DNA of 64,000 nt from Microbacteriaceae bacterium VKM Ac-2854 (GTDB lineage: Bacteria > Actinomycetota > Actinomycetes > Actinomycetales > Microbacteriaceae). A program made the position numbers and the translations under genes. The notes under the pieces were generated by a model, which saw only the letters and a program-made list of their open reading frames with translations, was not told the origin of the DNA and searched no databases. This document shows positions 25,529-57,744 of the stretch, piece by piece. Positions within the stretch are counted from its first letter, which is position 1. Every line of letters begins with the position of its first letter. Location: positions 930,001 through 994,000 of the forward strand of contig JABMLH010000001.1 of NCBI GenBank assembly GCA_013205085.1. Direction: 5' to 3'.

Positions 25529-25573
25529 GATCACTCCTTCCCGGCTCCGCGTTCGATCGCGGGGCCGTTTCTC

Positions 25574-25622
25574 ACGCTAGGTGCGGCCCGTCGGCGGCGG
25601 GAGGTTCTGCCATCCCCTGGCA
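25574..25622 (-). promoter_or_regulatory. Shared promoter element A (aldo/keto reductase)
   Basis: On the minus strand a block reading CCAGGGGATGGCAGAACCTCCC in two parts (CCAGGGGATGG, then CAGAACCTCCC; 25599-25620) is followed by 19 bp and TAGCGT (25579-25574). The same CCTCCC-N19-TAGSGT pattern recurs at 27503 and 27557. Confidence 0.6.
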
Positions 25623-25668
25623 CAGCAGGGCATGGCAGTGCGGGATGCGGGCGCAGCCGCTGCCGTGA

Positions 25669-26556
25669 CTAGGCCTCCGGGATGCTGAACTGGCCTGGCT
25701 TGCGCACCGCGTCCGGGTCCGGGCCGCTGCGCACACCGGTGTCGAGGGCGTCGATCGCGTCGAGCTGCTCGCTCGTGAGTTCGAAGTCGAAGACGTCGAA
25801 GTTCTCGGCGATGCGCTCGGGCTTGACCGACTTCGGGATCGCGCTGCGACCCTGTTGCAGGTGCCAGCGCAGCATCACCTGGGCGTTGCTCTTGCCGTGC
25901 TCCGCGCCGATGGCCGCGATGGTCGGGTCGGTGAGCGGGCTGCGTGAGGAGCCGTCGCTCCAGCCGGGGTAGAAGGTGATGCCGCCGATCGGCGACCAGG
26001 CCTGCGTCACGGTTCCCTGGGCGGTGTCGGCCGCCTCGTTCTGCTTCTGTGCGAAGTACGGGTGCAGCTCGATCTGGTTGACGGCGGGCACGACGGTGCT
26101 GCCCTCGGCGAGGCGGGCGAGGTGGGTGGGGGTGAAGTTGCTGACGCCGATCGCGCGGACGCGGCCGTCGGCGAGCAGGGTCTCCAGCGCACGGTAGGCC
26201 TCGAGTGTCACGTCGAACTGCCAGGGTGCGGGCTGGTGCAGGATGAGCAGATCCAGGGTGTCGACGCCGAGCTTCCCGGTACTCACGTCGAAGGCGTGCA
26301 GGGTCTCGTCGTAGCCGTACTGGCTGATCCAGACCTTCGTCTCGATGAAGACCTCATCGCGGTCGATGCCGGAGGCGCGGATGCCTTCGCCGACCTGGCG
26401 CTCGTTCATGTAGGCGGCGGCCGTGTCGATGTGGCGGTAGCCCGTGCGCAGAGCGATCTCCACCGCGGCCGCGGTGTCCTCGGCGGAGCTCTGGAAGACG
26501 CCGAGGCCGAGAGCGGGCATCCGGACGCCGTTGTTCAGGGCGATGAATTCGGTCAT
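25669..26556 (-). CDS. Aldo/keto reductase, 2,5-diketo-D-gluconate reductase type
   Basis: The 295-residue AKR has GYRHIDTAAAYMNERQVG with Asp and Tyr, FIETKVWISQYG with Lys, LLILHQPAPW with His and the cofactor-binding block AIPKSVKPERIAEN. It belongs to the small AKR5-like group that reduces diketo sugar acids or other aldehydes. A possible leaderless start is indicated: the weak -10 TGCGGT ends seven bases before the ATG and no ribosome site fits. It is the second AKR of a row of three in this region. Confidence 0.87.
   Translation of the reverse strand: MTEFIALNNGVRMPALGLGVFQSSAEDTAAAVEIALRTGYRHIDTAAAYMNERQVGEGIRASGIDRDEVFIETKVWISQYGYDETLHAFDVSTGKLGVDTLDLLILHQPAPWQFDVTLEAYRALETLLADGRVRAIGVSNFTPTHLARLAEGSTVVPAVNQIELHPYFAQKQNEAADTAQGTVTQAWSPIGGITFYPGWSDGSSRSPLTDPTIAAIGAEHGKSNAQVMLRWHLQQGRSAIPKSVKPERIAENFDVFDFELTSEQLDAIDALDTGVRSGPDPDAVRKPGQFSIPEA

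Positions 26557-39805: not shown

Positions 39806-39809
<4 letters not shown>
38379..39809 (-). CDS. Amidase (amidase signature family)
   Basis: The 476-residue protein has the Ser-cisSer-Lys triad of amidase-signature enzymes. Lys92 lies in VTVKENLY, Ser167 in GGSSSGAGAAAAAG and Ser191 in GTDIGGSVRLPA. It hydrolyses a carboxamide to acid and ammonia or amine. It overlaps the dual ABC ATPase gene by 4 bp and ends the five-gene import operon, so the transported compound is probably an amide or peptide-like molecule cleaved on entry (inference). Confidence 0.9.
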
Positions 39810-41568
<1,759 letters not shown>

Positions 41569-41569
<1 letters not shown>

Positions 41570-42471
41570 CAGCGGTTCCTCATCTTGGGGTCGAAGCGGT
41601 CGCGCAGCCCGTCGCCGAGCAGGTTGAAACCGAGAACGGCGATCGCGATGGCGATGCCGGGCACGATGGCGAGGTAGTCGAAGCTGCCCAGGAACTGCTG
41701 CGAATCCTGCAGCATCCGGCCCCACGAGGGCGTCGGCGGCTTGGTGCCCAGGCCCAGGAAGGAGAGTCCGGCCTCGGCGAGCACCGCGGTCGCGAAGTTC
41801 ACCGAGCACTGCACCACGAGCATCCCGCTGATGTTGGGCAGCACGTGCTTCACGGCGATCGCGAAGCCGGAGCGGTTGGCGGCGCGGGCCGCGAAGACGT
41901 AGTCGGTGCCGACCACCTGCAGAGTGCCGGCGCGGGCGACCCTGGCGAACGCGGGCGCCGCGCCGATGCCGAGCGCGATCATGGCGGTGGAGGTGTCGGC
42001 CCCGAACACGGCGCCGAAGACGATCGCGATCAGCAGGCCGGGGAAGGCCATCACCACGTCGCTGCCGCCCATGATCAGGGTGCCGAGCTTGTTCGGCCGC
42101 ATGCCGGCGATGATGCCCAGCGGCACGCCGATCACGGCGGCGATGGCCACGGCGACCGTGCCGACCAGCAGGGTGATCTGCGAGCCGACCATGATGCCGG
42201 AGAGCACGTCGCGGCCGTAGCGGTCGGTGCCGAACGGATGCGCGAGGCTGGGGAACTGCAGCCGGTCGGCGGCCACGGTCTGCACCGGGTTGTACGGCGT
42301 CCAGACCAGCGAGACGAGGGCCGTGACGACGATCACGGCGATCAGGATCGCGCCGATGATCAGCGAGGCGTTTCCGCGTGGCCGGAATCGGGCGAAGCGG
42401 CCGACGGTCGGCAGCAGGGTGGTGCGTGGCGGGCCGGCGGGGCTCGTCTCGCGGGGAACGGTGGCGGTCAT
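41569..42471 (-). CDS. DppC-type ABC transporter permease
   Basis: The 300-residue protein has about six helices and the oligopeptide permease C features HPFGTDRYGRDVLSGIMVGSQ near the N-terminal side, ARVARAGTLQVVGTDYVFAA and the inner-loop EAGLSFLGLGTKPPTPSWG. It forms the membrane channel with the DppB-type partner, whose stop overlaps its start by 4 bp. Confidence 0.92.
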
Positions 42472-43412
42472 GCGGCCCTCCGCAGTCTCGGGTCGAGCAC
42501 CGTGAAGGCGAGGTCGACGAGGAAGTTGATCAGCACGATGGCCACGACGAGCACCACGACCACCGCCTGCACGGCGAGCAGGTCGCGATTGCCGACGGAG
42601 TCGACGAGGTAGCTGCCCAGGCCCGGGATGCTGAACACCCGCTCGATCACCACGGCGCCGATGAAGAGGCCGGCCAGCTGCACGCCGATGACGGTGAGCA
42701 CGGGGATGCCGGCGTTGCGCAGGCCGTGCCGCACCAGAGCCGAGCCGGCGGTGAGGCCCTTCGAGCGGGCGGTGCGCAGGAAGTCCTCACTCATGATCTC
42801 GAGCACGGCCGAACGGACGTAGCGGGTGAGGATGGAGGCCTGCACGGAGCCGAGCGCGATGGCCGGCAGCGCGAGGTGGCGGAAGAACTCGGCGCCCTCG
42901 GCCGGGGCGGCCCAGCCGCCGGAGGGGAACCAGCCGAGCCCGATCGCGAGGAAGGCGACCAGCAGCACACCGACCAGGAAGTTGGGGATCGCGACGCCGA
43001 GCTGCGAGACGCCGGAGATGACGACGCCCGAGACCTTGTTGTGCCGCATCGCCGCGATGGTGCCGAGCGGGATGGCGACGATCAGGGCGATGACCATGGC
43101 TGCGACCACGAGGATCAGGGTGACCTGCAGCCGGTCGAAGACGGTGCTGGAGATGTTCTGCTGGCTGACGTAGGAGGTGCCGAAGTCGCCGCGGAACAGG
43201 CCGAGCAGCCAGTCGACGTACTGCTGGAAGAGGGGGACGTCGAGGCCGTTGGCGGCGCGCCAGGCGACGAGCTGGTCGGGCGTGGCGTCGATGCCGAGCG
43301 CGACGGTGGCGGGATCGCCGGGCATCACACGCAGCAGGAGGAAGACGACGATCGTCGAGATGAGGACGGTGGCGACGAAGCTGCCGAGCAGGCGGATCAT
43401 CCGGAGGGCCAC
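42468..43412 (-). CDS. DppB-type ABC transporter permease
   Basis: The 314-residue protein has six helices with the DppB hallmarks VVFLLLRVMPGDPATVALG, GDFGTSYVSQQ, RYVRSAVLEIMSEDFLRTAR and SIPGLGSYLVDSV. The GTG at 43412 is chosen because an AAAGGGGG ribosome site precedes it at good spacing; a GTG two codons earlier overlaps that site. A stable hairpin lies between it and the binding-protein gene, which may lower permease expression relative to the binding protein. Confidence 0.9.
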   Translation of the reverse strand: MALRMIRLLGSFVATVLISTIVVFLLLRVMPGDPATVALGIDATPDQLVAWRAANGLDVPLFQQYVDWLLGLFRGDFGTSYVSQQNISSTVFDRLQVTLILVVAAMVIALIVAIPLGTIAAMRHNKVSGVVISGVSQLGVAIPNFLVGVLLVAFLAIGLGWFPSGGWAAPAEGAEFFRHLALPAIALGSVQASILTRYVRSAVLEIMSEDFLRTARSKGLTAGSALVRHGLRNAGIPVLTVIGVQLAGLFIGAVVIERVFSIPGLGSYLVDSVGNRDLLAVQAVVVVLVVAIVLINFLVDLAFTVLDPRLRRAA

Positions 43413-43455
43413 GGTCACCCCCTTTCAGGGAGTTCGGATCGGGAGGGCGGAGGGG

Positions 43456-43486
43456 CGGCGGCCCCGGCGCGGTGCCGGGGCCGCCG
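43456..43486 (-). promoter_or_regulatory. Hairpin between binding-protein and permease genes
   Basis: Arms CGGCGGCCCCGGC and GCCGGGGCCGCCG (13 bp, perfect) surround a 5-base loop in the 82-bp gap. Such intercistronic hairpins commonly stabilise the upstream binding-protein message or partially terminate. Confidence 0.6.
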
Positions 43487-43494
43487 AGGCGGGG

Positions 43495-45012
43495 TTACTC
43501 CCAGGTGAGGCCGGTGAGGTCCATCGATTCGGTGACCGAGTTCGCCTTGATGCCGTCGAGGCCGGCGTCCGAGATCACGATGTTCGGGAAGAGGAACAGC
43601 GGCACGGCGGGCTCGTCCTCGACGATCTGGTCGACGACCTCCTTCATGCCATCGACCCACTCCTCCTCGGTGCCGGCGTCGGCCGCGGCGACGATCGGGG
43701 CGATGGTCGAGTTGTCGTAGCCGATGTAGTAGTCGGGGTTGTTGAAGGTCGCGAGCAGGTCGCGCGCCTCCACCGAGAGGATCACCGACATCTGGTAGTC
43801 GTGCTTGGTGAAGACCTGGTCGAGCCAGACCGCGGGGAACTCGCTGGAGCGGATGGTCGCGGTGATGCCGACCTCGGCGAGCTGCGAGACGATGATCTCG
43901 GAGACGGCGGTGGCGTAGGGGCGGGTCGGCACGTCGAACGTGATCGCGAGGTCCGAGACGCCGGCCTCGGCCAGCAGGTCCTTCGCCTTCTCGGGGTCGT
44001 AGGCGTACGCGTCCGACTTGTCCTCGTAGTACGGGTCGGTCGGCGGCACCATCGCACCGATGACCTCGCCGTAGCCGGCCCAGGCCGTGTCGATGATGGC
44101 CTGCTTGTCGAGGGCGTAGGCGACCGCCTGGCGCACGCGCACGTCGTCGAACGGCGCGGTCTTGTTGTTCAGCGACAGCAGGATCTCGCCGTTGGAGGAG
44201 CCCTGCACGACCGCGAAGTCGTCGTTCGCCTCGAACTGGCTGATCAGGTCGGGGGCCTGCATGTTGTAGAGCATGTCGACGTCGCCGGCGCGCAGCGCGT
44301 TGGTGCTGGCGACCGCGTCGGCGAAGTAGCGGACGGTGACATCGGTGACGGCGGGCGCCTCCCCGTAGTAGTCGTCGCGGGCGGCGAGCGAGATGTGGTC
44401 GCCCGTCACACGCTCGGTGACCGTGTACGGGCCGGTGCCGATCGGCGTGTTCGCGAGGTCGGCGACGCCGCTCTCGTCGAACATCAGGCCGACGGTGCCG
44501 GCGATGTCGAAGAGCCACGAGTTGCTCGGCGTGGTCAGCACGACCTTCGCCTCGGTCGGCGACACGACCTCGACGTGGTCGAGCACGGCCATCTTCGCGA
44601 CGTTGATCTTCCAGTCGGTCTTGATGCGCTCGAGCGAGAACTTCACGTCGTCCGCCGTGAACTCGGCGCCGTTGGAGAAGGTCGCGCCCTCGACCAGGGT
44701 GAAGTCGTAGCTGAGGCCGTCGTCGCTCACGGTCCAGGACTCGGCGAGCTTGGGCACGAGCGCGCCGTCCTGGTCGACGGCGATGAGGCCCTCGTAGACG
44801 TTGTTCATCAGCAGCTGCGGGATCGCGGCACCGGAGGTGGTGGTCAGGTCGAAGTTGGCGGGTTCACCGGTCAGGCCGATCACCGCGGTCGGCTCGTGCG
44901 CCTCGCCGCTGGCGGCGGAGGAGGCGCCGGCTCCGGCGCTGCAGGCGCCGAGGGTGAGGATGGATGCGGTGGCGATCGCCGCGGCGGCGAGACCTCGGGA
45001 GGGGAGTTTCAC
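43495..45012 (-). CDS. ABC transporter substrate-binding lipoprotein, family 5
   Basis: The 505-residue protein has a lipoprotein signal with lipobox LGAC (Cys24). Peptide/nickel-type binding segments follow: KLAESWTVSDDGLSYDFTL, FTADDVKFSLERI, NTPIGTGPYTVTER and VRQAVAYALDKQAI. It captures a peptide-like or amide substrate outside the membrane for the Dpp-type channel. It is the first gene of the five-gene importer/amidase operon and diverges from the FadR/GntR gene across a perfect GntR operator. Confidence 0.92.
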   Translation of the reverse strand: MKLPSRGLAAAAIATASILTLGACSAGAGASSAASGEAHEPTAVIGLTGEPANFDLTTTSGAAIPQLLMNNVYEGLIAVDQDGALVPKLAESWTVSDDGLSYDFTLVEGATFSNGAEFTADDVKFSLERIKTDWKINVAKMAVLDHVEVVSPTEAKVVLTTPSNSWLFDIAGTVGLMFDESGVADLANTPIGTGPYTVTERVTGDHISLAARDDYYGEAPAVTDVTVRYFADAVASTNALRAGDVDMLYNMQAPDLISQFEANDDFAVVQGSSNGEILLSLNNKTAPFDDVRVRQAVAYALDKQAIIDTAWAGYGEVIGAMVPPTDPYYEDKSDAYAYDPEKAKDLLAEAGVSDLAITFDVPTRPYATAVSEIIVSQLAEVGITATIRSSEFPAVWLDQVFTKHDYQMSVILSVEARDLLATFNNPDYYIGYDNSTIAPIVAAADAGTEEEWVDGMKEVVDQIVEDEPAVPLFLFPNIVISDAGLDGIKANSVTESMDLTGLTWE

Positions 45013-45210: not shown

Positions 45211-45960
45211 GTGACCTTCACCCCCGTCCAGAAGATCAGTGCGTACGAGTCGATCGTCGAGCAGATCGAGGGCGCCGTTCAGTCCGGCGAACTCAAGCCG
45301 GGCGACCGGCTGCCCGGCGAGCGCCAGCTGATGGCCGACTTCTCGGTGAGCCGCGCGGTGGTGCGGGAGGCGCTGCGTGTGCTGCAGGCCACGGGCACCG
45401 TCGAGTCGCGCCCGGGCGATCCCCGCGGCCCGGTGATCACGGCGTACTCGCCGCGGATGCTGGAGAAGTCGATGTCGCGCCTCGCGCACCTCGAGAGCAT
45501 CTCCCGGGTGGAGTTGCTGCAGTTCCGCCTGCTGCTGGAGGGGCGCTCCTGCCTTCTGGCCGCGGAGAACCGCAGCGAGGCCGACCTGATCGAGTTCGAC
45601 GCGCGCCTGGATGCGCTGCGGCAGAGCGCTCTCGCCGGCGGTTCGGGCTTCGGCATCGCCGTGAACCGATTCCACGCCGCCATCCGTCACGCCTCCGGCA
45701 ACCAACTCGTCGAGGTCTGCGGCAACGTCGTCGGCGGCGTGATGGTGCAGCTGGCCGAAAACCGATTGCACAGCGAGAGCGACCGGCTGGCGCGGGTGCA
45801 GCGCAGCGTCGCCGACGCCGAGGTGCTGCTCGAGGCGATCCGGAGCCAGGAGTCGCACAAGGCCGAGCGGATCTCGATCCAGAACATCTACCGGTACTAC
45901 GAGGACGACCTGTCGGCCGAGGAGGTCCGCGCCCTGGCGCCGTTCGTCGATACGCCGTGA
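45211..45960 (+). CDS. FadR/GntR-family regulator with FCD domain
   Basis: The 249-residue protein has a GntR winged helix (GDRLPGERQLMADFSVSRAV, then REALRVLQATGTVESRPG) and an all-helical FCD ligand domain with the metal-site pattern NRFHAAIRHASGN. The start is GTG at 45211, after GGAAGGAG. It faces the Dpp-type importer operon over a perfect TGGTC/GACCA palindrome. A second copy of this operator near the aminotransferase suggests that it controls both segments of the pathway. Confidence 0.9.
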   Translation: MTFTPVQKISAYESIVEQIEGAVQSGELKPGDRLPGERQLMADFSVSRAVVREALRVLQATGTVESRPGDPRGPVITAYSPRMLEKSMSRLAHLESISRVELLQFRLLLEGRSCLLAAENRSEADLIEFDARLDALRQSALAGGSGFGIAVNRFHAAIRHASGNQLVEVCGNVVGGVMVQLAENRLHSESDRLARVQRSVADAEVLLEAIRSQESHKAERISIQNIYRYYEDDLSAEEVRALAPFVDTP

Positions 45961-45988
45961 TCGCGGCGCGGCTGAGCGTCGCTGCGCC

Positions 45989-48900
45989 TCACATCACGAA
46001 GTCGACGGCGAACACGAGGCGCCGGGCGGCGGGCTTGCGGGCGGCTTCGCCGAAGCCGCCCGCCGGCCGGCTGATCCAGGTCTCGGCCTGCGAGGCATCG
46101 GTTTCGAAGAGCTCGTGCTCGGTGATCAGCAGCCGCAGCTCCGTGTCCTCGATGCCGTCGACCGGCGGCACGATCGCGTGCCAGCGCAGGTCGGCCAACT
46201 CGCCGCTCGCGTGCAACGTCACGGGCGCCGACGCATCCGCCCAGGCGATTTCGTCGGAGCCGTGTGGGCGCCGCTGCCAGAGCGCGACCACCTGGCGCGA
46301 GGCGTCCGCGATCACCGCATCCGCCGAGCCGAACAGGTAGTTCTGGCCCAGCGCGTTGTAGCCGGAAGGTCCGCGAACGGACACCGCGAAGGAGCCGGAC
46401 AGCAGCGGGGTGAGCGCCGCGGTACGGTCCGGCAGCAACTGCGTGAAGCCGGGCTTGACCACCGCGGAGGCGTGGTAGCCCGAGATCGAGTGCGGCTGGT
46501 AGCGCACCAGGGCGAGGTCGACGAAGGGCTGGTACGCCGAACCGCCGTCGAGCTGGAGGTCGCAGTACCAGAGTCCGCGCTCGGCGTCGAAGGCGGGCTG
46601 GTGGCCCACCACAACGCCCGTCTCGGACTGGCCGGGGATGGCGATGCCGGTGCCGACGGCCGAGCGCAGCGCGAACTGGTGCACGTACGGACCGCGCGGC
46701 AGCGCGGGCGAGGCCCAGGCCGGATCCGAACCCCAGCGGCTGACCAGCGGTCCGCTCGCTCCCAGCAGCGCCGGGAAGAGTTCGAGCGCGCCGGTCAGCT
46801 CCTCGTGCCGCTCGAAGACGGGCTCGGCCCCGACGCCGGCCAGCACCGCGAGGTGGGCGCTCAGCTGGGCGTCCTCGCGGTCGATCCGAGCGCCGAGCAC
46901 GGCGGCCTTCGGCGCCGCGGCCCGCGCGTTCAGCAGCCGCTCGCTCGGCCGCAACCGGGCGGATCCGTTCAGGGTCGCCGCCCCGGCGGCGCGCAGCCGC
47001 TCGGCCGCCAGGTCGGCGCCCTGCAGCGCCTCCGGGCTCGGCAGCAGCGCCGTGTCGATCGGGGCGGTCAGCCACGGCTGGTTCGGCACCACAACGCCGA
47101 GCAGTTCGTCGGCACCGGAGGAGTACCACGGCCGGCCGAGGTACACGCGCAGCCCGCCGCCGGTGCGGCTGCGCACCCGCGTCGGCATCAGCGCGCCGAG
47201 TCCGAGCCGGGTGCGCGCCCCGATCGTGCTGCGCTCCGACCAGGTCCAGGTGGGCACGACGTACTCCACCTGGGGCGGATCGGGGCGGTGCGAGGAGGGC
47301 ACGTTCAGCCGAAGCGTCGGCCCGGGATGCACGGTCAGATCGCCGCCCAGCAGGCGGTCGGTGATGGCGGGCGGGAAGTATTCGCGGAATCGTGTGGTCG
47401 CCGTCGCGCTGTAGTCGACCCAGCGGTGCTTGGTGTCGCCGAACTCGTGCCGGAGCAGGTGGGTGGCCGGGCGCAGCGGCGTCGGGGCGTACTCGGTGCC
47501 GCCGATGCGGCAGTCGTCCTCCGTCGCATCCAGCAGGAAGTCGCCGACGTGCGCCTGCCCCGTCCGGGTCTCCGGCGCGGGCTGGGTGACGTCGTCGACG
47601 GGCTCCTCCCACGCGGCCTCGACGTCGAGGCGGCCCGTGCTCTTCGCGTGCACGCGGATGATGCCCGCCAGCGTCGCGGCGGTCTCACCCGGAAAGCGGA
47701 AGACGCCGGAGGAGAGCGTCTTCGGCTCGTCCACCCGGAGCTCGGGCGGCGCGAGCGGCTTCTCCACCGCGTGCACCAGCTCCAGGGTCTCGGCGGGCGT
47801 GAGCAGCCAGTGCCGCCCGAGCACCGCATCCTCCTCCTGCGCCTGCCGGTACGGCTCGGCCTCGAGGCCCCAGACCCCCATCAGCTCGAGCTCGTCCTTC
47901 GGCAACACCGAGCTCAGTGCGACGACGGCGTGGTCTGCCTGCGGCACGAACACCCGCAGCAGCCGCCGATCCGCGTCCCACTCCGCCGCGCCGGCGCCGT
48001 CCTCGATCCGCAGCCGGATCGGATCTCGGTCGTGCCAGGCGCCGGCGCTCGGCCACTCCTGCACCCGGGTGCCGCCGTCGCCGGGCAGGCTCGTGAACGA
48101 GACGCCGAGCGCGAGCGGATCCGGCAGGTACGGCAACGAGAGCGCGTCCACGTCGTGCAGCACGTACGAGCCGCCCTGCTGCAGGTTCTGGTGCGGCACC
48201 AGCCGCCCGAGCTCGTCCGTCAGCACGATCGGCCGTGGCGGCTCCTTGCCGTCGCTGAGCATCCCGGCGTCGTCGGGGGAGAGGAAGGTGCCGGAGGAAC
48301 GCGCGGCGATCGCGAAGGCCGCGTCGCGGTCGGCGGCGCTCGCCGAGCGGTGCAGCGCGTCGTCGAAGCGGCCGTGCAGCTCGGCGAGCTGCTGCGAGCC
48401 CTGTGGAGCCGCGAGGTGCCGCTCGTTCGCGGCCCGGTAGGCGAGGTCCTCCCGCTCGTGCCCGGGCAGCGCGACGATGCGCGCCAGCGCGGCGTACTCC
48501 TCCGCGCCGACGCCGAGGGTCGACCGGATCACCATCCGCAGCAGCGACTCGCCCTCGGTGAACGGACGCCGTGGCACCACGGCGGGAGCGGGCACCGGGT
48601 CCCAGCGGAAGAACGTCGTGAACGGCGTGACGTGCTGCGGATCCAGGAAGTCGCTCGGCACGGAGCGGCCGGCCATGTCGACCAGCCGCGCGCGCATCCG
48701 ATAGCGGCGGCCGAAGCGCAGCCGCGGCAGGCTGCCGCGCACCGGGCGGAACAGCACCTCCAACGGCAGCGGATAGGGTTCCGGCTCCTCGACGCCGGGC
48801 AGCGGCGGCTCGACGCCGAGCAGGCCGATGCGGTTGCCCGGGCGTTGCGCGGCGAGGCTCCAGCCCTCCCACCCGGCCACGGCCTCGTGCAGGTAGGCGA

Positions 48901-50368
48901 GCGTCGGCTCCGCGGCGTTGCGGCTGGCGCTCGCCGCCTTGAGATAGCCCTCGTCGTCGGCGAGCGGCGCGTTCACCGGCAGCGGCAGCCGCTCGCCGGG
49001 GGTCGCGGTGCGCAGCCGGTAGTCGCCGGTGCGCTGGTGCAGCGAGCGCCAGTCGTCCGGCGCCGACTCCTCCGCGACGTCGACGCGGTAGCCGCGGGTG
49101 ACCTCCTCCGCGCGCAGTTCGGCCGGGGCGTCGGCGGCGCGCTGGGCCTCCTGCTGCTGCGCCTCGTCCCAGCCGGCGACGACTCGACCGGCGCGCCCGC
49201 GGCGGTAGAGCGTGAGCCCCGCGCCGCGCAGGGCGGGCAGCGACGCGGCATCCGCGGTCATCGACGGCGCGACCTCGTCGCTGCCGGGCGTCGCCGCGAC
49301 CACCTCGGCCGTGCGCACCACGGAGCGGGCGGTGTTGGCGACCTTGAGCGCGGCGCCGTCGAGGTCGATCTGCTCCAGCAGGAACAGCCGTTCCGCATCG
49401 ACGCGCAGGGAGCCGTCAGCCAGCTCGCCCTCCCGATCGCGCGGAAGGGCGATGAAGCGGCGCTCGCGGAATTCGTAGCCCGTCCACGGGCGGGCGCCCT
49501 CGCGCTGGATCCAGTCGGCCGGCGCATCCCGCGGCAGCAGCCGCACCCGGCCCTCGCCCTCCGGGATCCGTTCGCCCTCCACCACGAGGTAGTCCAGCGC
49601 GAGGCCGAGCCGACGCAGCAGCTCCGGGTAGTCGGCCAGCGCCGAGACGAAGCCGTGGAACTCCAGCGCCGGGCGCTCCGGCGGCGGCGGCTCGACGTCG
49701 GGGCCGAGCGGATCGGCCGAGCCCGGTCGCTCGTAGAAGCGCATCGCCTCCTGCACCGTGAGCACGCTGCCGAGGGCCGTCGTCGGCGCGGGCAGGGCGC
49801 CCCGATCGACGTAGCGGCCGGGGGTGCCGACCGGGCTGCCGGGCGGCGGCGAGACCAGCGGGAAGTCGGGGTTCATCAGAGCCGGGCCGCGCCGCTCGCC
49901 GTGCAGCAGCGCGCGGCCGATCGGATGCAGCGTCGACAGCGGCCCCGAGCGTGCGGGCGGCAGCCGATCGTGCGAGTCCTCGGCCACGGTGGCGTAGACC
50001 GTGCGGATCAGCTCCGCCACGGCCGCCGCCGGGAAGGACGCCACGGTGGTGCCGCTGAGGTCCTGGAAGCCGCCGTCGCCGACCTCGACGGCGTCGAACA
50101 GGGCGTGCCACAGGCCCGGATCCGCTGGCGGTGCCGCCGGGTCCGGCTCCAGTTCGAGCACCTCGTGGAAGCCCGCGGCGTCGACCTCCAGCGCGAGGGC
50201 GAGCCGCTGCGTCGCGGCGGCCCAATCGGCGAACACCGGATACTCCGCGAGCGGGACTCGGCCGCCGCCGGCGTCGAGGCGCGGCGTGACGAATGCGGTC
50301 AGCCGCAGCCGTCCGCTCTGCGGATCCGTGCTGCCCGGCAGGGCGGTGAGCAGGCCGTCCTCGTCCAT
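45989..50368 (-). CDS. Giant protein of unknown function, 1459 residues
   Basis: I recognise no family. The protein starts after a strong GAGGAGGAGG site. Its N-terminus contains RLRLTAFVTPRLDAGGG and FADWAAATQRLALAL. Around residue 553 it has YRMRARLVDMAGRSVPSDF, and around 743 DVDALSLPYLPDPLALGVSF. No signal peptide, membrane helix, P-loop or clear catalytic motif was seen. The C-terminal third is predicted beta-rich (for example QPFVDLALVRYQPHSI). It lies 34 bp after the 1251-residue gene on the same strand, so the two probably act together, perhaps as large structural partners (inference). Confidence 0.75.
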   Translation of the reverse strand: MDEDGLLTALPGSTDPQSGRLRLTAFVTPRLDAGGGRVPLAEYPVFADWAAATQRLALALEVDAAGFHEVLELEPDPAAPPADPGLWHALFDAVEVGDGGFQDLSGTTVASFPAAAVAELIRTVYATVAEDSHDRLPPARSGPLSTLHPIGRALLHGERRGPALMNPDFPLVSPPPGSPVGTPGRYVDRGALPAPTTALGSVLTVQEAMRFYERPGSADPLGPDVEPPPPERPALEFHGFVSALADYPELLRRLGLALDYLVVEGERIPEGEGRVRLLPRDAPADWIQREGARPWTGYEFRERRFIALPRDREGELADGSLRVDAERLFLLEQIDLDGAALKVANTARSVVRTAEVVAATPGSDEVAPSMTADAASLPALRGAGLTLYRRGRAGRVVAGWDEAQQQEAQRAADAPAELRAEEVTRGYRVDVAEESAPDDWRSLHQRTGDYRLRTATPGERLPLPVNAPLADDEGYLKAASASRNAAEPTLAYLHEAVAGWEGWSLAAQRPGNRIGLLGVEPPLPGVEEPEPYPLPLEVLFRPVRGSLPRLRFGRRYRMRARLVDMAGRSVPSDFLDPQHVTPFTTFFRWDPVPAPAVVPRRPFTEGESLLRMVIRSTLGVGAEEYAALARIVALPGHEREDLAYRAANERHLAAPQGSQQLAELHGRFDDALHRSASAADRDAAFAIAARSSGTFLSPDDAGMLSDGKEPPRPIVLTDELGRLVPHQNLQQGGSYVLHDVDALSLPYLPDPLALGVSFTSLPGDGGTRVQEWPSAGAWHDRDPIRLRIEDGAGAAEWDADRRLLRVFVPQADHAVVALSSVLPKDELELMGVWGLEAEPYRQAQEEDAVLGRHWLLTPAETLELVHAVEKPLAPPELRVDEPKTLSSGVFRFPGETAATLAGIIRVHAKSTGRLDVEAAWEEPVDDVTQPAPETRTGQAHVGDFLLDATEDDCRIGGTEYAPTPLRPATHLLRHEFGDTKHRWVDYSATATTRFREYFPPAITDRLLGGDLTVHPGPTLRLNVPSSHRPDPPQVEYVVPTWTWSERSTIGARTRLGLGALMPTRVRSRTGGGLRVYLGRPWYSSGADELLGVVVPNQPWLTAPIDTALLPSPEALQGADLAAERLRAAGAATLNGSARLRPSERLLNARAAAPKAAVLGARIDREDAQLSAHLAVLAGVGAEPVFERHEELTGALELFPALLGASGPLVSRWGSDPAWASPALPRGPYVHQFALRSAVGTGIAIPGQSETGVVVGHQPAFDAERGLWYCDLQLDGGSAYQPFVDLALVRYQPHSISGYHASAVVKPGFTQLLPDRTAALTPLLSGSFAVSVRGPSGYNALGQNYLFGSADAVIADASRQVVALWQRRPHGSDEIAWADASAPVTLHASGELADLRWHAIVPPVDGIEDTELRLLITEHELFETDASQAETWISRPAGGFGEAARKPAARRLVFAVDFVM

Positions 50369-50402
50369 CCCGATCCTCCTCCTCGTTCGTGTGATCTCGG
50401 CG

Positions 50403-53400
50403 TCAGTCGGCGAACGCGTCGCAGTAGTCGTCCCACGGCCGGGGCTCGGCGGGCGCGGCGGGATGCACCCCCATCACCTCCGCGAAGGTGGGGTCGCCGG
50501 AGGAACCGGCGAACTTCTTCTCGCAGCTGATCGAGACGGAGAACGAGAGCAGGCAGACCGAGACCTCGACCGAGATGCTGGCCCGCCCCACCGCCTTGCC
50601 CGTCGAGGTCTCGTAGCTGAGCTCCAGGTAGATCTCGATGCTCGCCGTGATCAGCCCGAGCACGTCGACCTCGCCGCGGGCCCGGAAGTACCCGGCTAGC
50701 AGGGCGCTGGTCACGCCGTTCTCGGTCCGCAGCCGGAAGTAGATGCCCGCCATCACCGAGACCGAGCCGCTGGCCACGCCGAAGTTCAGCTCGATCGCCG
50801 CGCCGAACTCGAAGGCCGCCTCGAGTTCGCGCACCTCGTTCGGCGTGATCACCACGGCGAAGAAGCCGCCGCCGGCGAAGAACGCCACCGCGAGTCGGAA
50901 CGGGTCCTCCCGGCTGGAGAAGGCGAAGCGCACCGCGATCGACTCGCCGACGAACGGCACCTCGAAGGCGGCCGAGAAGACGATGTTCGAGAGCGAGAAC
51001 ACGCCCATCGCCACGGTCGGGATGGCCAGATCGAAGCCGGCCTTGATGCCCGAGGCCGAGACGTCGAGGTAGGGCGGGTCGCTGAAGCCGTCGAACGGGA
51101 TGATCTCGCGCAGGGTCTCCACGAACGACAGCGGCCCGCCGAAGCGCACGCCGCGATCCGCCGTGAACACCACGTTCACATCCGTCTTGCTGCCGGGCAC
51201 CGCCGAGAACTCGATCTTCTCGAACGAGAGCGTGATGAACGGATCCGCGCCGCCGATCAGCCGCAGCTCGAACGGACTGATCGCGCACGTGACCAGCGCG
51301 CTCGCCTCGCCGCCGGGTCGTGTGGGCGCCTGCAGGTCGACGGCCAGAGTCAGGCTGCCCGTGCCGTCACGCGGCGCGAAGATCGGGTCCCCTGCCGGCC
51401 ACGGCCGCAGAGGTGTGCTCCAGTCCAGACGTGCCCGCACGGTCTCGGGCAGGGTGCCGCCGGAGGCGAGCAGCCGCAGCGCCGCGAGCAGCGCCTGCGT
51501 CTCGGCCGCGGTGGCACCGAGCTGGTCCAGCAGCCGCTGCGCCGTCGCGGTCAGCGCCTCCCGGTCTGCGCGCAGCAGCGCATCCGCCGCGGCGAGCTCG
51601 GTCGAGAGGGCGCCGAGCGCGCCGCGCAACCCGGGCACGGCCGCCTCGACCGCGGCGATCCGGTCGTCGATCGGCACGCCGTCGTCGGCGAGGCCGGTCA
51701 CGGCAGCCAGCAGGGCCTCGGCCGCGGTGGCCGTCTCCTGCAGTCGGGCCGCGACGGCGCTGGGCTGCGCCGCGAGCCACACCGCCGTCTGCTGCAGCTG
51801 CGCGAGGTTCGCCGTGAGCATGCCCGCCGCATCCAGCCCCTGCGCGACGAAGCGGGGCAGCGTGTCCAGATCGCTCGGGATCAGCTCCGCCAGGCTGACC
51901 AGGCCGAACAGCTTCGCGGAGGAGGGGAAGTACTTCGCGATGTCGAAGGCGGGCCCGCCCGCGACCAGGTCGGCGACCGGTCCGCCCACCGGGCCGAGGC
52001 TGCGCGAGAGCGCGCTGACGTCGAGTGACGGCGCGACGAAGCCGCCGGAGCGGTCGGACTGGGTGCTGAAATTCAGCGCGGCTGGCGCCGCGAGCTGCAG
52101 GAACACCTCGGCGGCGTTGCCCGCAAAGCCCTTCGAGAGGTACTCCGCCGGGAAGCGCACCGCGACCGAGGCGTTCGCGCCGGCGAGGGCGCTCATCGCA
52201 GGCACGATGGTGCGCGCCTCGCGCAGGATGGGCTCCACCCGCGCCTGCGACTGCGGCCGCGCCAGGGTTCCGGTGGTCGCGATCACGTCGAAGGTCATCG
52301 AGCGGGTGGCCAGGCTGGTGTCGTCGGCGTTCGCGGACGCCGCGTAGGCCACCTTCTGCCCGCGGAAGTCGAAACTCGGAGCGATCGGCGCGTAGAAGGC
52401 GATCGTCTTCGTCAGCGGTGAGCCGAGCGGATCCGCGGCGCTGTAGGCGTTGTGGTCGTACTCGGCGAACACCAGCGGCCCGTCGAACTCGAGCAGGTGC
52501 CCGTCGAGGTCGACCCCGAGCATCCGGAACCGGAACGGCACGCCGTTCACCGTTGGCGTGAACAGCACCCCGCCGATGCCGGGGGAGTGATCCACCGGCA
52601 GGTCGAGGTCGGGCGTCGAGACGGTGAGGATGCGCACGCTGGTCAGCATCATGCCGAGGTCGATCCGCACGTCGCCGGCCGTCTCGCCGGTCGCGCCGTA
52701 GCTGCGCTCCGGCTCGCGGACGACCACGTACATGCGTTGGAACAAGGAGGCGACGCCGTCGCGCACCTTGCGCTCGGTCACCTTCACCAAGGAGGCCGGA
52801 TGCAGCAGCGGCCAGAGGAATCCGGCGTAGACGACCTTCACGGAGCTGTCGCGGCCGAGCGCGGCGTTGTGCGTCCACTCCTGCAGCGAGAGCGCGCCGT
52901 CGGGCGGTTCGGTCTCGAAGCGGCTCGACAGCCAGCCGCCCAGGCTCGACAGCATCAGCCGGTCCACCGCGACGGACGGCGGGGTGTAGCGCAGTCGGTC
53001 GCGGCGCAGGTGGAAGTTCGCGGATTCGTGCACCAGCATCATCCGGTCGCGGCTGCTGAGCGGGCTGCGCCAGTTCGGCCGGTCCTGCGTCTGGTCGGCC
53101 TCGGGCAGCACGGCGGTGGCCGTCGCGTCGAAGCCGAAGCCCGGCGTCTCGTCGAAGTCGCGGGCACAGACGGCGCGCACGGTGCGGTCGTCGCGGGCAC
53201 TCTCGTCGACGCCCCCGCCTTCGCCTTCGCCCCGGTCAACGGGATCGTCGGAGCGGTTGCCGAGGCGGGTGTGCCACAGCTCGACGCGGCCCTCGGGCGG
53301 TGCGGCGCTGCGATGGGCGAACGCCGCGCCGCGATGCGGGCTGAGCTGCAGCCGCCAGGGCAGCTCGATCGCCGTCTCCGTCGGGCTCGGAGCGCGGGGA

Positions 53401-54158
53401 ACGGGCGGCAGCACCACGGGGCCGGGCACCCGGGTGACCACGTCGATCAGCTCGCGCCGCGACTCGGCCGCGAGCCGGAACGCCCCGGCGCCGGCGCTCG
53501 CCGCGATCAGCGCCCGCGCGGCCGAACGCGCGCCGAACCGCGCCTCGAGGACGGCGGCGGAGGCGCGCATCCGGGCGGCGCTGCGCAGCCCCGCGGCCGT
53601 GCTCGCGCTGACCCGGGTCACCTCGAGCGGGCGCCAGAGCGTCGCCTGCTGCACGGCGTGCGGGGCCACGGCCAGCGGCAGCGTGCGCAGCGCCTCCAGC
53701 AGGCCGGCGGCCGTGTACGGGATGCGCTCGTCGCTGATGCGGAACACCAGCCGGCTCGCCCCGGCCAGCCGGATCTGCACCGGTGGTGGCAGCACAGCAT
53801 CCGCGGCCGATTCCGTATCCGGATCCGTCGGCTGGCCGGGCGACGGGGTGAAGTCGCCGACGCCCATTCCGGTGATCTGCTCGAAGAACGCCCGCTCGTG
53901 CAGGTGCTGGCCGCCGAAGATCACGCGGAGGAATCCCTCGGCCGCGTCGTCGGAACGGCGCAGCGTGTCGCCGTCGAGCACCAAGCCGACGAAGGAGAAG
54001 CGCAGCCGGAGCAGGTCGCTCGGCCGGAGCAGGGTGAGCCCGGGCAGGCTCTCGTGCACACCGTCGACGTCGATCAGGCCGAGATCGATCGGCGTGAAGA
54101 CGAAGCGCTCGGTGAGGAGCGCACGGAAGGCGGATGGATCGAGATCGCGACCGGCCAT
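50403..54158 (-). CDS. Giant protein of unknown function, 1251 residues
   Basis: No family is recognised. The start at 54158 follows CGGAG; a longer upstream frame has no ribosome site. The N-terminal half contains the striking segment LSLQEWTHNAALGRDSSVKV and VYAGFLWPLLHPASLVKVTE. Residues about 785-910 are an Ala-rich helical, possibly coiled-coil stretch. Residues about 920-1210 are repetitive beta-strand sequence rich in Phe/Gly/Ala (GGGFFAVVIT, FEFGAAIELNFGVASGSVSV, ASIEIYLELSYE). The tail has three cysteines. No signal peptide or membrane helix was seen. It is the upstream gene of a two-gene operon with the 1459-residue protein. Confidence 0.75.
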   Translation of the reverse strand: MAGRDLDPSAFRALLTERFVFTPIDLGLIDVDGVHESLPGLTLLRPSDLLRLRFSFVGLVLDGDTLRRSDDAAEGFLRVIFGGQHLHERAFFEQITGMGVGDFTPSPGQPTDPDTESAADAVLPPPVQIRLAGASRLVFRISDERIPYTAAGLLEALRTLPLAVAPHAVQQATLWRPLEVTRVSASTAAGLRSAARMRASAAVLEARFGARSAARALIAASAGAGAFRLAAESRRELIDVVTRVPGPVVLPPVPRAPSPTETAIELPWRLQLSPHRGAAFAHRSAAPPEGRVELWHTRLGNRSDDPVDRGEGEGGGVDESARDDRTVRAVCARDFDETPGFGFDATATAVLPEADQTQDRPNWRSPLSSRDRMMLVHESANFHLRRDRLRYTPPSVAVDRLMLSSLGGWLSSRFETEPPDGALSLQEWTHNAALGRDSSVKVVYAGFLWPLLHPASLVKVTERKVRDGVASLFQRMYVVVREPERSYGATGETAGDVRIDLGMMLTSVRILTVSTPDLDLPVDHSPGIGGVLFTPTVNGVPFRFRMLGVDLDGHLLEFDGPLVFAEYDHNAYSAADPLGSPLTKTIAFYAPIAPSFDFRGQKVAYAASANADDTSLATRSMTFDVIATTGTLARPQSQARVEPILREARTIVPAMSALAGANASVAVRFPAEYLSKGFAGNAAEVFLQLAAPAALNFSTQSDRSGGFVAPSLDVSALSRSLGPVGGPVADLVAGGPAFDIAKYFPSSAKLFGLVSLAELIPSDLDTLPRFVAQGLDAAGMLTANLAQLQQTAVWLAAQPSAVAARLQETATAAEALLAAVTGLADDGVPIDDRIAAVEAAVPGLRGALGALSTELAAADALLRADREALTATAQRLLDQLGATAAETQALLAALRLLASGGTLPETVRARLDWSTPLRPWPAGDPIFAPRDGTGSLTLAVDLQAPTRPGGEASALVTCAISPFELRLIGGADPFITLSFEKIEFSAVPGSKTDVNVVFTADRGVRFGGPLSFVETLREIIPFDGFSDPPYLDVSASGIKAGFDLAIPTVAMGVFSLSNIVFSAAFEVPFVGESIAVRFAFSSREDPFRLAVAFFAGGGFFAVVITPNEVRELEAAFEFGAAIELNFGVASGSVSVMAGIYFRLRTENGVTSALLAGYFRARGEVDVLGLITASIEIYLELSYETSTGKAVGRASISVEVSVCLLSFSVSISCEKKFAGSSGDPTFAEVMGVHPAAPAEPRPWDDYCDAFAD

Positions 54159-54268
54159 AACAACGCTCCGGGATCGACACTGATGCGGGAGAGGATGCTC
54201 CACTCGGGAGCGCGGCGTGCGGTTCTCATTCACCCACTCGGCGGGCCCGGCGTCAATGCTGCGCTCTG

Positions 54269-55732
54269 TCACGTCTTCGCCCGGGGTCTCGGTCGGGGTG
54301 GTGGGTCGGGGTCTTCTGGTCTTCCGGTGAGTCTTCGGTGGGGGTTGCCCATCGGTCGTGGTGTGCGGTGCGGGTCGATCACGAAGGGTGGGATCAGGTG
54401 CGCGCGCAGGCCCTGCGCGGTCATCTTCATCACGATCTCCCAGCCGGTGTTCGCGTGGACCACGTGGTGGTGAAAAGCGCATAACGGCACCCCGTTGTCG
54501 ACGCTGGTCCTGCCGCCGCGGGAGTGCCAGTGCACGTGGTGCGCTTCGGTCCATGCGGGTGGGGCGGTGCAGCCGGGCCAGGCGCAGCCGCCGTAGAGGG
54601 CAGCGAGGAGCTTCTTCTGCGCGGGCGTGAATTCGCGCACGGGCCGGCCGAGGGCGTCGGTGAGGTTGCGGTTGCCGAGGATCGCGAGGCGCACCTCCCC
54701 GTGACACCGCAACCGCCGCACCGTCGCCGCCGGTACCGGCTCCTCCGTGTGGTCCAGGTACGCGGGCCCGGTCGCGTCGTCGTCGAGATCGGCGGCGTTC
54801 ACGTACGCGGTGATCTGCGGCGTCGCCCCGGCGGGCGCCTCGGACGCGGCGCCGGCGACGACGAGCGCGACGACCGTGTCGAGTACCTTCTGCCCGTGCG
54901 TGCGGTCATCCCCGAACACCTCTCCCTCCGCCGCTTCACGGGTGTTGTCGCCGTCGCGGAACGCGGGCTTGCGGGGGCTGGTGTGCGGGGACAGCGACGA
55001 TTTGATCGCCGCGGCCTGCTCCGTCGTCACCGTCAACACGAGCGTCTCCGTGCCGGTCTTCCCTTTGCGCCACACCGCGTTGCGGAGGTGGAACGCTTCC
55101 TCCTCGCTGGGCTCGAGCCCGTCGGGGTCCAACCGGGCTCGCCACGCGAGGGCCTGGATCTTCACCAGCTCCGCCGCTATCCCGGTCCCGGTGACGGCGC
55201 CGTGCGCGTTCGCGTCCCCGGCCGGGTCGGTCGCGGATTCCACGATCGCCTTCTCCGCGACCGCGAGTTCGTCGGGGTGGATCCGCGCCGCGGACCCGGA
55301 CAGGGTCGACACGAGCACCTCCGCGGCGTCCGCGTGCATGGTCCCGGCCAGTACCGCCTGCCCCATCACGGGGAACAGTGCGGGCGCGCCCCAGCCGCTG
55401 GTGACCGCTTTGCCCATCCCCGCCTGCCCGAGCCGGATGCGTCGCCCCGCGGTCGCTTCGGAGGATCCGGTGAGCATCGCCAGCAGTTGCTTCCCGGTGC
55501 GGACCCCGTGCCGCAACGCGAGCGAATCCATCCCCCGCTCGACCTGGCAGGCCTCCTCGATCGCGCCCGCCGCCCCGATCGCGCCGCCGACCACGGCCCG
55601 CTCCAGCCCTCCCCACGCGACCGCGAGTTCCATACGCTCGTTCTCCGTCAGCCGCCCCCACTCGATCGAGGCGACCTCATCACGCACCTGCGCCGCCAGA
55701 GCGGCGATGCGAGGGAGAAGGGTTGGAGTCAT
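54269..55732 (-). CDS. DUF222 / HNH endonuclease signature protein
   Basis: The 487-residue protein has an N-terminal DUF222-like helical region and a C-terminal HNH nuclease fold with zinc ligands. The latter reads CAWPGCTAPPAWTEAHHVHW, then GVPLCAFHHHVVH. Such genes are repeated in many actinobacterial genomes; they are suspected mobile or homing-type nucleases, but their role is not settled. I chose the ATG at 55732 because a perfect TATAAT box lies seven bases upstream, implying a leaderless transcript; an ATG at 55786 is possible. A palindromic repeat lies upstream. Confidence 0.85.
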   Translation of the reverse strand: MTPTLLPRIAALAAQVRDEVASIEWGRLTENERMELAVAWGGLERAVVGGAIGAAGAIEEACQVERGMDSLALRHGVRTGKQLLAMLTGSSEATAGRRIRLGQAGMGKAVTSGWGAPALFPVMGQAVLAGTMHADAAEVLVSTLSGSAARIHPDELAVAEKAIVESATDPAGDANAHGAVTGTGIAAELVKIQALAWRARLDPDGLEPSEEEAFHLRNAVWRKGKTGTETLVLTVTTEQAAAIKSSLSPHTSPRKPAFRDGDNTREAAEGEVFGDDRTHGQKVLDTVVALVVAGAASEAPAGATPQITAYVNAADLDDDATGPAYLDHTEEPVPAATVRRLRCHGEVRLAILGNRNLTDALGRPVREFTPAQKKLLAALYGGCAWPGCTAPPAWTEAHHVHWHSRGGRTSVDNGVPLCAFHHHVVHANTGWEIVMKMTAQGLRAHLIPPFVIDPHRTPRPMGNPHRRLTGRPEDPDPPPRPRPRAKT

Positions 55733-55738
55733 ACCCCC

Positions 55739-55744
55739 ATTATA
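55739..55744 (-). promoter_or_regulatory. Perfect -10 box (TATAAT) before the HNH gene
   Basis: TATAAT on the minus strand ends seven bases before the ATG at 55732. In GC-rich DNA this is a strong promoter element and points to transcription starting at the ATG. Confidence 0.6.
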
Positions 55745-55810
55745 GGTGACAAGTTCTAACGAGTCCAGCGTCTCGTCTAGATTCATTCGAAGATACGTTC
55801 AGCTTCACGG

Positions 55811-55997
55811 GGCGCTCCCTCCTCCGCTGATCGAGTAGCCCAAGGCCGCCCGCGGCCGACGCGTATCGAGATCCTTGCGCCTGCTCTCAACGGTGGGTGC
55901 AAGGGTCTCGATACGCCGGTTCGCAGAGCGAACCGGCTACTCGACCAGCGGGGGGCGTCGCGTCCGCGAGGCGCTCCCTCCTCCGCTGATCGAGTAG
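55811..55997. repeat. 28-bp direct repeats flanking a palindromic element
   Basis: GGCGCTCCCTCCTCCGCTGA and the following TCGAGTAG occur identically at 55811-55838 and 55970-55997. The second copy begins a diverged version of the palindromic element, so the unit seems to have duplicated in tandem. Confidence 0.75.
55825..55950. repeat. 126-bp nested palindromic intergenic element
   Basis: The outer arms CGCTGATCGAGTAG and CTACTCGACCAGCG (one mismatch) enclose inner arms GCGTATCGAGATCCTTGC and GCAAGGGTCTCGATACGC (one mismatch). The inner arms are at 55861-55878 and 55899-55916. Small perfect hairpins lie inside. The form recalls REP/BIME or MITE-like elements. Confidence 0.7.
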
Positions 55998-56217
55998 TTC
56001 AGGGCCGCTTCAAATCACTGTCGGCATAGCCGTCGATCCGGTGGTTGAGTCTGCCGACTTGTCCTGAGCCTGTCGAAGGGAACCCGGCCGACGCGTGTCG
56101 GGATCCTGCACCTGCACTCAGCGATGGGTGTATCGAGTCCAGCAGGGCACTTCTATCGAAGTGGTAATCGGCTCGGCTCCGTCGTCTGCGTCCCGCCGCA
56201 CCGCTGAGACGGCGCAA

Positions 56218-56253
56218 CGAAAGAGGGCGCCCCCGGAAGGGCGCCCTCTTTCG
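56218..56253. terminator. Strong hairpin terminator of the sugar porter gene
   Basis: Perfect 15-bp arms (56218-56232, 56239-56253) of the form CGAAAGAGGGCGCCC surround CCGGAA, with a CTCTTTCG end. It lies 43 bases after the stop on the minus strand and has A/T-rich ends on both strands, so it may work both ways. Confidence 0.85.
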
Positions 56254-56295
56254 CGGCGGATCGCGGCGGCTCGTGGCGGAAGAGCCTCGGCGGAG

Positions 56296-57744
56296 TTACT
56301 TCTTGTGCACCGTGTAGATGGCGCCGGTGGTGACGTCCTCTTCGAGGGCCTCCAGCGTGCGGCCGCGGGTCTCGGGAACCGAGGTGTAGATGAAGATCAG
56401 CGTCAGGATCCCGATGCCGCCGAAGAGCAGGAAGGATCCGGTGATACCGACCCCTGCGACGAGCGAGGGGAAGTACAGGCCGAGGAACGCGTTCGCGATC
56501 CACAGGCAGAACACCGAGATGCCGATCGCGAAGCCGCGGATGAACAGCGGGAAGATCTCCGACAGCATCACCCAGATGGCGATGTTGAGGAAGGTCTGCA
56601 CCGAGCCGACGAAGAGCACAACGAGCAGCAGGATCACGTAGGGGCGGAATTCGTTGCCGGTCGGCAGCAGCGTCGCGGCAAGAGCGATGAGGAAGTGCAT
56701 CGAGGTCGTCAGCGAGAAGCCGAGCAGAAGGGTCGTGCGACGGTTCATGGTCTGCATCAGGCGCAGGGCGATGAGGCCACCGATCACAGCGATGACACCC
56801 GGGGCGACGTTCGCGATGAGCGCGCCCTGCTTGTCGAAGCCGGACTCGACCAGCACGGTCTGGCCGTAGTACATGATCGAGTTGATGCCGGTGAGCTGCT
56901 GGGCGACACCGAGGCCGATGCCGACCAGCACGATGCGAAGGATCCACTTGTCCTTCAGGGCACCCCAGGAGCCCATCTTGGTGGCCTTCTCCTCCTCGGC
57001 GAGGTGCTTCACATCGGCCATCTCGGCCTCCGCGCGGTCGACGGAGCGGACGGTCTTCAGTACGGCGAGGGCTTCGTCGTTGCGGCCCTTGGAGATCAGC
57101 CAGCGCGGCGATTCGGGGACGCGGAGCATTCCGACGAACAGGGCGATCGCGGGCACGGCGGAGACGGCGAGCATGTAGCGCCAGACGCCGCCGTCCTCGC
57201 TCCAGACGCTGCCGATGATCGCGTTGATCACGAAGGCGGCGAGCTGGCCGATCACGATCATCAGTTCGTTGCGGCCCGCGATCTTGCCGCGGATCTCGTG
57301 CGGGGCCATTTCGGCGAGGAAGACCGGGACGACACCGGAGGCGCCGCCGACGGCGAGGCCGAGCAGGATCCGACCGAAGACCATGACCTCGAACGAGGGT
57401 GCGAAGACGCAGGCGAGCGTGCCGAAGAAGAAGAGCAGGGCGAGCAGGATGATCGTCTTGCGGCGGCCCCAGCCGTCCGACAGGCGACCGCCGAGGATCG
57501 CGCCGAACGCGGCGCCGAAGAGAAGGGCCGAGGTGACGACGCCTTCCGTGAACGGGGTGAGGCCCAGTTCGACCGTCATCGGCGACAGGGCGCCGTTGAT
57601 CACTCCGGTGTCGTATCCGAAGAGGAGGCCGCCGAAGGTGGCGATCAGCGCGACGACTCCGAGGCGCTTCATGTGGGGACCCTCGGTGAGGGGCGGTAGC
57701 GGCACCGAGCTGGCGGCACCGTGTGAGGGCTTCATGGTGGTCAA
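56296..57744 (-). CDS. MFS sugar porter (SP family)
   Basis: The 482-residue protein has twelve helices and the sugar porter signatures [49 protein letters not shown] and [13 protein letters not shown]. It imports a sugar or polyol with protons. I chose the TTG at 57744, six bases after AAGGAG; the ATG at 57735 is the alternative. An operator copy lies directly upstream, and a GntR/UTRA regulator gene precedes it. With the Gfo/Idh/MocA enzyme it forms a small sugar or inositol-like uptake and oxidation cluster (inference). Confidence 0.9.

Follow-up and report, generated by a model that had tools for sequence, protein, structure and literature searches.

Based on a comparative analysis of a 64,000-nucleotide stretch of DNA (hereafter the window), we identified two adjacent and very large genes, P2 and P1, that form a patchily distributed and seemingly horizontally mobile pair, recur side by side in other bacteria and diverge in step with each other. 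The linker between two conserved modules of P2 varies widely in length among relatives, and some of these relatives carry a Tat-like start. The mobility, the variable linker and the Tat-like starts go beyond the original prediction, which was made from the window sequence. The pair may well represent a two-part molecular machine that has yet to be described, whose proteins may form a physical complex, contact a membrane, be exported and act against other cells or against mobile elements.

The two genes and their reading frames

Both genes are located on the minus strand. P2, the first (upstream) gene of the pair, spans positions 50403..54158 and encodes 1251 aa, and P1, the second gene, spans 45989..50368 and encodes 1459 aa. 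The original prediction of two giant genes on one strand at 45989-54158, separated by 34 bp, was correct in its coordinates, strand, lengths and gap. The P2 frame stays open upstream as far as a GTG at 54707, and the ATG at 54158 aligns with the residues MAGR close to the beginning of the nearest fetched relative, L002 (an Actinomycetales MAG). Over aligned codons, the identity to L002 is 63% for P2 (dN 0.30, dS 0.73) and 70% for P1 (dN 0.24, dS 0.71). The third-position GC is 0.90 for P2, calculated on the 1434-aa frame, and 0.94 for P1. Additionally, a likely ribosome-binding site, AGGAGGAGG, was read from the sequence 6 bp before the P1 ATG (50375..50383, minus strand). Considering the third-position GC, the dN/dS values relative to L002 and this site before P1, both P1 and P2 look like real genes.

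An artefact of open frames in GC-rich DNA was ruled out by the codon positions, the dN/dS values and the homologues. Very long plus-strand frames run antisense to the pair (46115-50530 and 52452-54473), and the codon-position filter, which P1 and P2 pass, does not mark them as coding. A common origin of P1 and P2 was rejected because profile similarity between them was absent. An apparent fusion of the two genes in G194 was also rejected, since its 3045-aa stop-to-stop frame is an extension of the P1 frame across P2, and P2 itself is encoded in a different frame. A search for DNA repeats gave weak matches only.

Recurrence and matching divergence of the pair

Relatives were collected by searches of genome contigs (4 loci), a plasmid collection, IMG/VR (two contigs carrying a pair, 2 loci) and whole genomes. 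Among the 72,556 records of the plasmid collection, P2 was detected in 20 and P1 in 11. Three further scans gave no match, and another re-found one of the two IMG/VR loci. One P2 profile was built without L005; the plasmid records H2 and H18, seemingly near copies of fetched ones, were left out of the locus set, and the locus count leaves out G162 and G462, whose P1 matches are split over contigs.

P2 and P1 are adjacent and in the same order, P2 then P1, in 27 of the 35 loci examined, including the window (the others being L002, L004-L011, L013-L018, L021, L022, L028, L029, L053-L055 and L057-L060), and the flanking genes vary between loci. Named carriers include Streptomyces and Proteobacteria. 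In the paired set, P2 is split over two frames in L008, L022 and L059, P1 is split likewise in L018, and L060 is a distant member. Elsewhere, the contig of L003 ends after P2, L020 holds pieces of P2, and L025, L026 and L027 hold pieces of P1. L056 is ambiguous: its P1 is a distant one, and the 2094-aa frame in front of it gives no match to the P2 profile. Upstream of the pair in L016, a 108-aa minus-strand frame (9241-9564) matches the alpha-type P1 profile with an E value of 7.5e-8 and may be the remnant of a further P1.

L019 and L024 have the P2 beta domain as well, but the giant gene that comes next is a different one, which neither of two P1 profiles matches. These second genes (L019 15649-23358, 2569 aa; L024 13992-20378, 2128 aa) resemble each other, belong to a distant branch and occupy the place of P1. 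Since this partner has no detected similarity to P1, P1 may be replaceable by another partner. The interpretation in the original prediction is supported in part: the two-part unit is borne out by the recurrent adjacency and by the lack of library matches described below, L019 and L024 speak against strict pairing, with the two genes always neighbours, and a structural or effector role of the unit is a possibility.

The distances among P1 proteins and among P2 proteins are strongly correlated, with a Mantel r of 0.931 over 22 of the 27 paired loci, a value that 0 of 5000 permutations reached; the split genes of L008, L018, L022 and L059 and the distant L060 were left out. Over the 17 short forms, the correlation was 0.906. 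Most groups are common to the P1 and P2 trees, while L021, L028 and the group of L053-L055 are placed differently.

P2 architecture and the variable linker

Two sub-profiles, one for residues 400-760 and one for residues 935-1250 of the window P2, were scanned against 24 P2 proteins. The first, the conserved core module (51879..52961, minus strand), was detected in 23 of them. The second identifies a conserved beta domain of amphipathic character, about 315 residues long, which covers approximately residues 905-1217 (50508..51446, minus strand) and was detected in all 24, including L019, the only protein that matches the beta domain without the core. Between these modules lies an Ala-rich helical linker, residues 769-898 (51465..51854, minus strand), which forms four helices in a low-confidence model. 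In the alignment of the window P2, residues 701-900 stand out by a high helical moment and residues 901-1200 by a high beta moment, in agreement with the earlier description of an Ala-rich helical stretch followed by about 300 beta-like residues in the upstream protein.

The AlphaFold2 model of P2 (residues 52-1251, 7 sequences) is too poor to be read as a fold, with a mean pLDDT of 42.8 and a pTM of 0.31. Its four helices at about 769-898 and the strands that follow, six of which, of 13-18 residues, lie within 1111-1217, agree with the moments. A second structure model, with a mean pLDDT of 35.4, was too poor for fold comparison.

Across 23 P2 proteins, the linker between the core and the beta domain ranges from 58 to 1184 residues. 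It measures 58-73 residues in L009, L010, L021, L029 and L058, 119 in L028, 169-226 in the window, L002, L013, L053-L055 and L057, 288-303 in L004-L007 and L014, 703 in L017, and 975-1184 in L011, L015, L016 and L018. In 20 of the 23 proteins, its beta moment is lower than its helical moment; the exceptions, L021, L029 and L058, all have short linkers. The Ala content is 12-26% in linkers of at least 169 residues and 8-11% in the six shorter ones. In the C-terminal domain, the beta moment exceeds the helical moment in 23 of 23 P2 proteins. The largest P2 chain reaches 3311 aa.

Tat-like starts in some P2 proteins

A Tat-like pattern, S/T-R-R-x-(F/L/V) followed by an uncharged hydrophobic run, was found at the start of 9 of 30 P2 frames (L009, L011, L015, L016, L017, L018, L022, L029 and L059) and in 0 of 30 P1 frames. 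Among the frames counted are first genes of uncertain identity (L024 and L056) and second genes that look unrelated to P1 (L019 and L024). The pattern suggests that P2 is exported or membrane-anchored in some lineages only. The window P2, read from the GTG at 54707, does not show a twin-arginine motif with a hydrophobic run after it, and neither do 20 other P2 frames; thus, export of the window copy is unsupported.

Signal-less partners of Tat substrates travel along with them as a folded complex. The P2 chains greatly exceed known Tat substrates in size, and 3311 aa would be very large for this pathway. In L011, located on a conjugative plasmid of Sinorhizobium, P1 is followed at a distance of 50 bp by a 55-aa gene annotated as tatA (25535-25702), with genes for type IV secretion and for mobilisation on either side.

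Distribution and probable insertion of the pair

Counting the genome of the window each time, P2 occurs in 1 of 15 genus genomes and 2 of 100 family genomes, and P1, searched by profile, in 6 of 149 order genomes and 6 of 246 phylum genomes. The search found no P2 in the other 14 genomes of the genus. In the window, a segment of about 10.3 kb that holds the pair and an HNH gene (45951..56296) is absent at the same place in the sister genome G010, where a P2 match is also absent. The left flank of G010 matches with 89.8% DNA identity up to 45950, which is 39 bp beyond the end of P1, and the right flank matches again from 56297 onwards, at a distance of about 138 kb on that contig. In G006, the left-flank match stops at 45939. 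The GC content over the pair is 72-76%; in the other 28 blocks of 2 kb it is 65.9-71.3% in 27 and 73.6% in one. The pair appears to be horizontally mobile and is patchily distributed.

The HNH-endonuclease-like gene (54269-55786) adjoins the pair within the segment missing from G010. Twelve similar stretches, with 70-72% DNA identity, are dispersed in G010, which indicates that this gene is repeated and possibly mobile; a rearrangement around it is possible too. Next to the insertion lies a peptide/nickel-type ABC transporter operon (39806-45012; a binding protein, two permeases and a double ATPase), which is conserved in sister genomes without the pair.

Searches of family, structure and literature libraries

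Neither protein had been expected to fall into a common family, and searches of Pfam, PHROGs, PADLOC and NCBIfam with P1 and P2 returned 0 families at E values up to 1. P1 had no match among PDB sequences, either as a single sequence or as a profile. The single P2 sequence gave six chance-level PDB matches (best E 0.26), and the P2 profile gave 16 (best E 0.0037), every one to helical proteins in the helical linker; the long forms gave E values of 0.38 and 2.9. A 14-row profile of the P2 beta domain matched bactofilin alone in the PDB (E 0.27), and the 14 beta-domain members matched four Pfam families at E values up to 1, each through one member. The giant relatives in L011 and L019 gave nothing above the curated cut-offs of Pfam or NCBIfam, the L019 matches falling below them. 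Additionally, 50,697 phage records held no match to P1 or to a C-terminal piece of the L011 P2.

By sequence, the pair is of no kind described in the libraries searched, a placement that a good structure could change. Searches of open-access papers returned no publication on the pair, as judged by title, a result weakened by the fact that the genes have no searchable name.

Proposed working of the pair and alternative explanations

As a possible explanation, which we favour while giving it somewhat less than even chances, the products of P1 and P2 would act as one assembly encoded by a horizontally mobile two-gene unit, with a helical stalk, a membrane- or lipid-facing beta domain and export in some lineages. 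P2 would be the stalk-like subunit. Its N-terminal part, which includes the conserved core, would be joined by a helical stalk of lineage-dependent length to the amphipathic beta domain at the C-terminus, and this domain may face a membrane or bind lipid. P1 would be the large partner without a Tat-like start. In the lineages where P2 has a Tat-type N-terminus, P2 could leave the cytoplasm or be anchored in the membrane, taking P1 with it as a folded complex.

The principal alternative, which we regard as unlikely, is an undescribed intracellular anti-phage or anti-plasmid system. Its two giant proteins would stay in the cytoplasm, where one would serve as the sensor and the other as the actor, and their genes would move between genomes together with other defence genes. 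The patchiness and mobility of the pair and the lack of a Tat-like signal in the window P2 are consistent with it, as is part of the gene neighbourhood. Defence-type genes lie within about 15 kb in 4 of the 11 annotated plasmid loci (L007-L011, L015-L019 and L024, nine of them with a detected P1): DpdE and DpdF beside the pair in L018, an IIG-type methyltransferase in L017, PtuB (Septu) in L024 and a SIR2-like protein in L019, the last two being the loci with a different second gene. The annotation of four 49-kb control stretches from the same four plasmids lists neither Dpd nor Septu genes, nor any gene for a DNA methyltransferase or SIR2. However, these controls, judged by annotation only, do hold an HNH endonuclease in one case and toxin-antitoxin genes in three, and the ten neighbours run against PADLOC had been picked after seeing their annotation (eight from L017, L018, L019 and L024, one from L005 and one from L016). 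For the neighbour from L016, the matches were weak only, with an E value of 4e-4 at best, and the other loci adjoin metabolic, transport, conjugation or toxin-antitoxin genes. We take the proximity to defence genes as a lead and not as a statistic. Also speaking against an intracellular defence system, no PADLOC-DB profile of known anti-phage systems matches either protein, neither matches a Pfam nuclease or nucleotide-binding domain, and Tat-like starts in 9 of 30 P2 frames are ill-suited to a purely cytoplasmic system.

Two further features were noted in these neighbourhoods. In L018 (7051-30762, Agrobacterium vitis), the pair lies just before dpdE-dpdH of the Dpd DNA modification/restriction system. 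DUF4365 genes occur near two loci, at 2351-3268 in L024 and at 23097-23504 in L025.

An effector that is secreted or displayed on the surface and targets other cells, with the amphipathic beta domain as its pore or membrane-binding part, seems to us improbable. Such an effector would suit the placement of that domain behind a helical region, the Tat-like starts found in relatives and the origin of several plasmid carriers from plants or soil. Small same-strand hypothetical genes, which could be immunity genes, also follow the second gene in L015 (26396-26857), L017 (20799-21179), L018 (21818-22153), L019 (23678-24253) and L024 (20419-21009), a count that depends on incomplete plasmid gene tables; no similarity was found among these five (best E 0.16). 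On the other hand, P1 and P2 match no toxin family in Pfam or NCBIfam, and the C-terminus of P2 is conserved rather than variable. In the window, no small same-strand gene was found after P1; the next gene is on the other strand, in a region common to sister genomes without the pair.

Finally, a cell-envelope or lipid-handling machine of ordinary physiology, such as a membrane-wall bridge, that has spread horizontally would agree with the long helical stalk, the amphipathic beta sheet and carriers in both Streptomyces and Proteobacteria, but is very improbable, since a pair found in a few percent of the sampled genomes and in 0 of 14 others of the genus is not a core function, and no Pfam lipid-transfer family, including the AsmA/TamB type, matches P1, P2 or the 14 beta-domain members.

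The assembly of P1 and P2 proposed above could be given a bolder form, which we consider rather doubtful: a new, self-contained two-protein conflict machine, co-evolving, Tat-exported in some lineages and spread by plasmids across phyla, in which the stalk length would set the reach of a membrane-active beta domain. Whatever its function, a very large protein pair that lies side by side in distant bacteria, yet outside the family libraries searched, is an open target. Additionally, the stalks form an unusual natural series, as their length between the two conserved modules changes about 20-fold, which raises the question of what this ruler measures.

Comparison with known systems

The pair resembles the anti-phage systems of PADLOC-DB in being patchy, mobile and sometimes near defence genes, and differs from them in the absence of a profile match. 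With polymorphic toxin systems, it shares large proteins, a patchy distribution, a location on mobile DNA and, in some loci, small unrelated genes that follow; unlike in those systems, the C-terminal beta domain is retained in 24 of 24 P2 proteins, and toxin family matches are lacking. The long amphipathic beta sheet beside helices in P2 resembles that of the bridge-like and AsmA-TamB lipid-transfer proteins, whereas the pair has no Pfam match and a recurrent second gene. As to the hydrophobic beta groove of this class, the P2 beta strands are amphipathic, but the P2 model has a mean pLDDT of 42.8. The S/T-R-R-x-(F/L/V) motif and uncharged hydrophobic run of nine P2 frames are as in Tat-exported proteins, while the window P2 and 20 other P2 frames have no such motif. 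The pair differs from phage proteins in having no PHROGs match; nevertheless, two IMG/VR contigs hold a pair.
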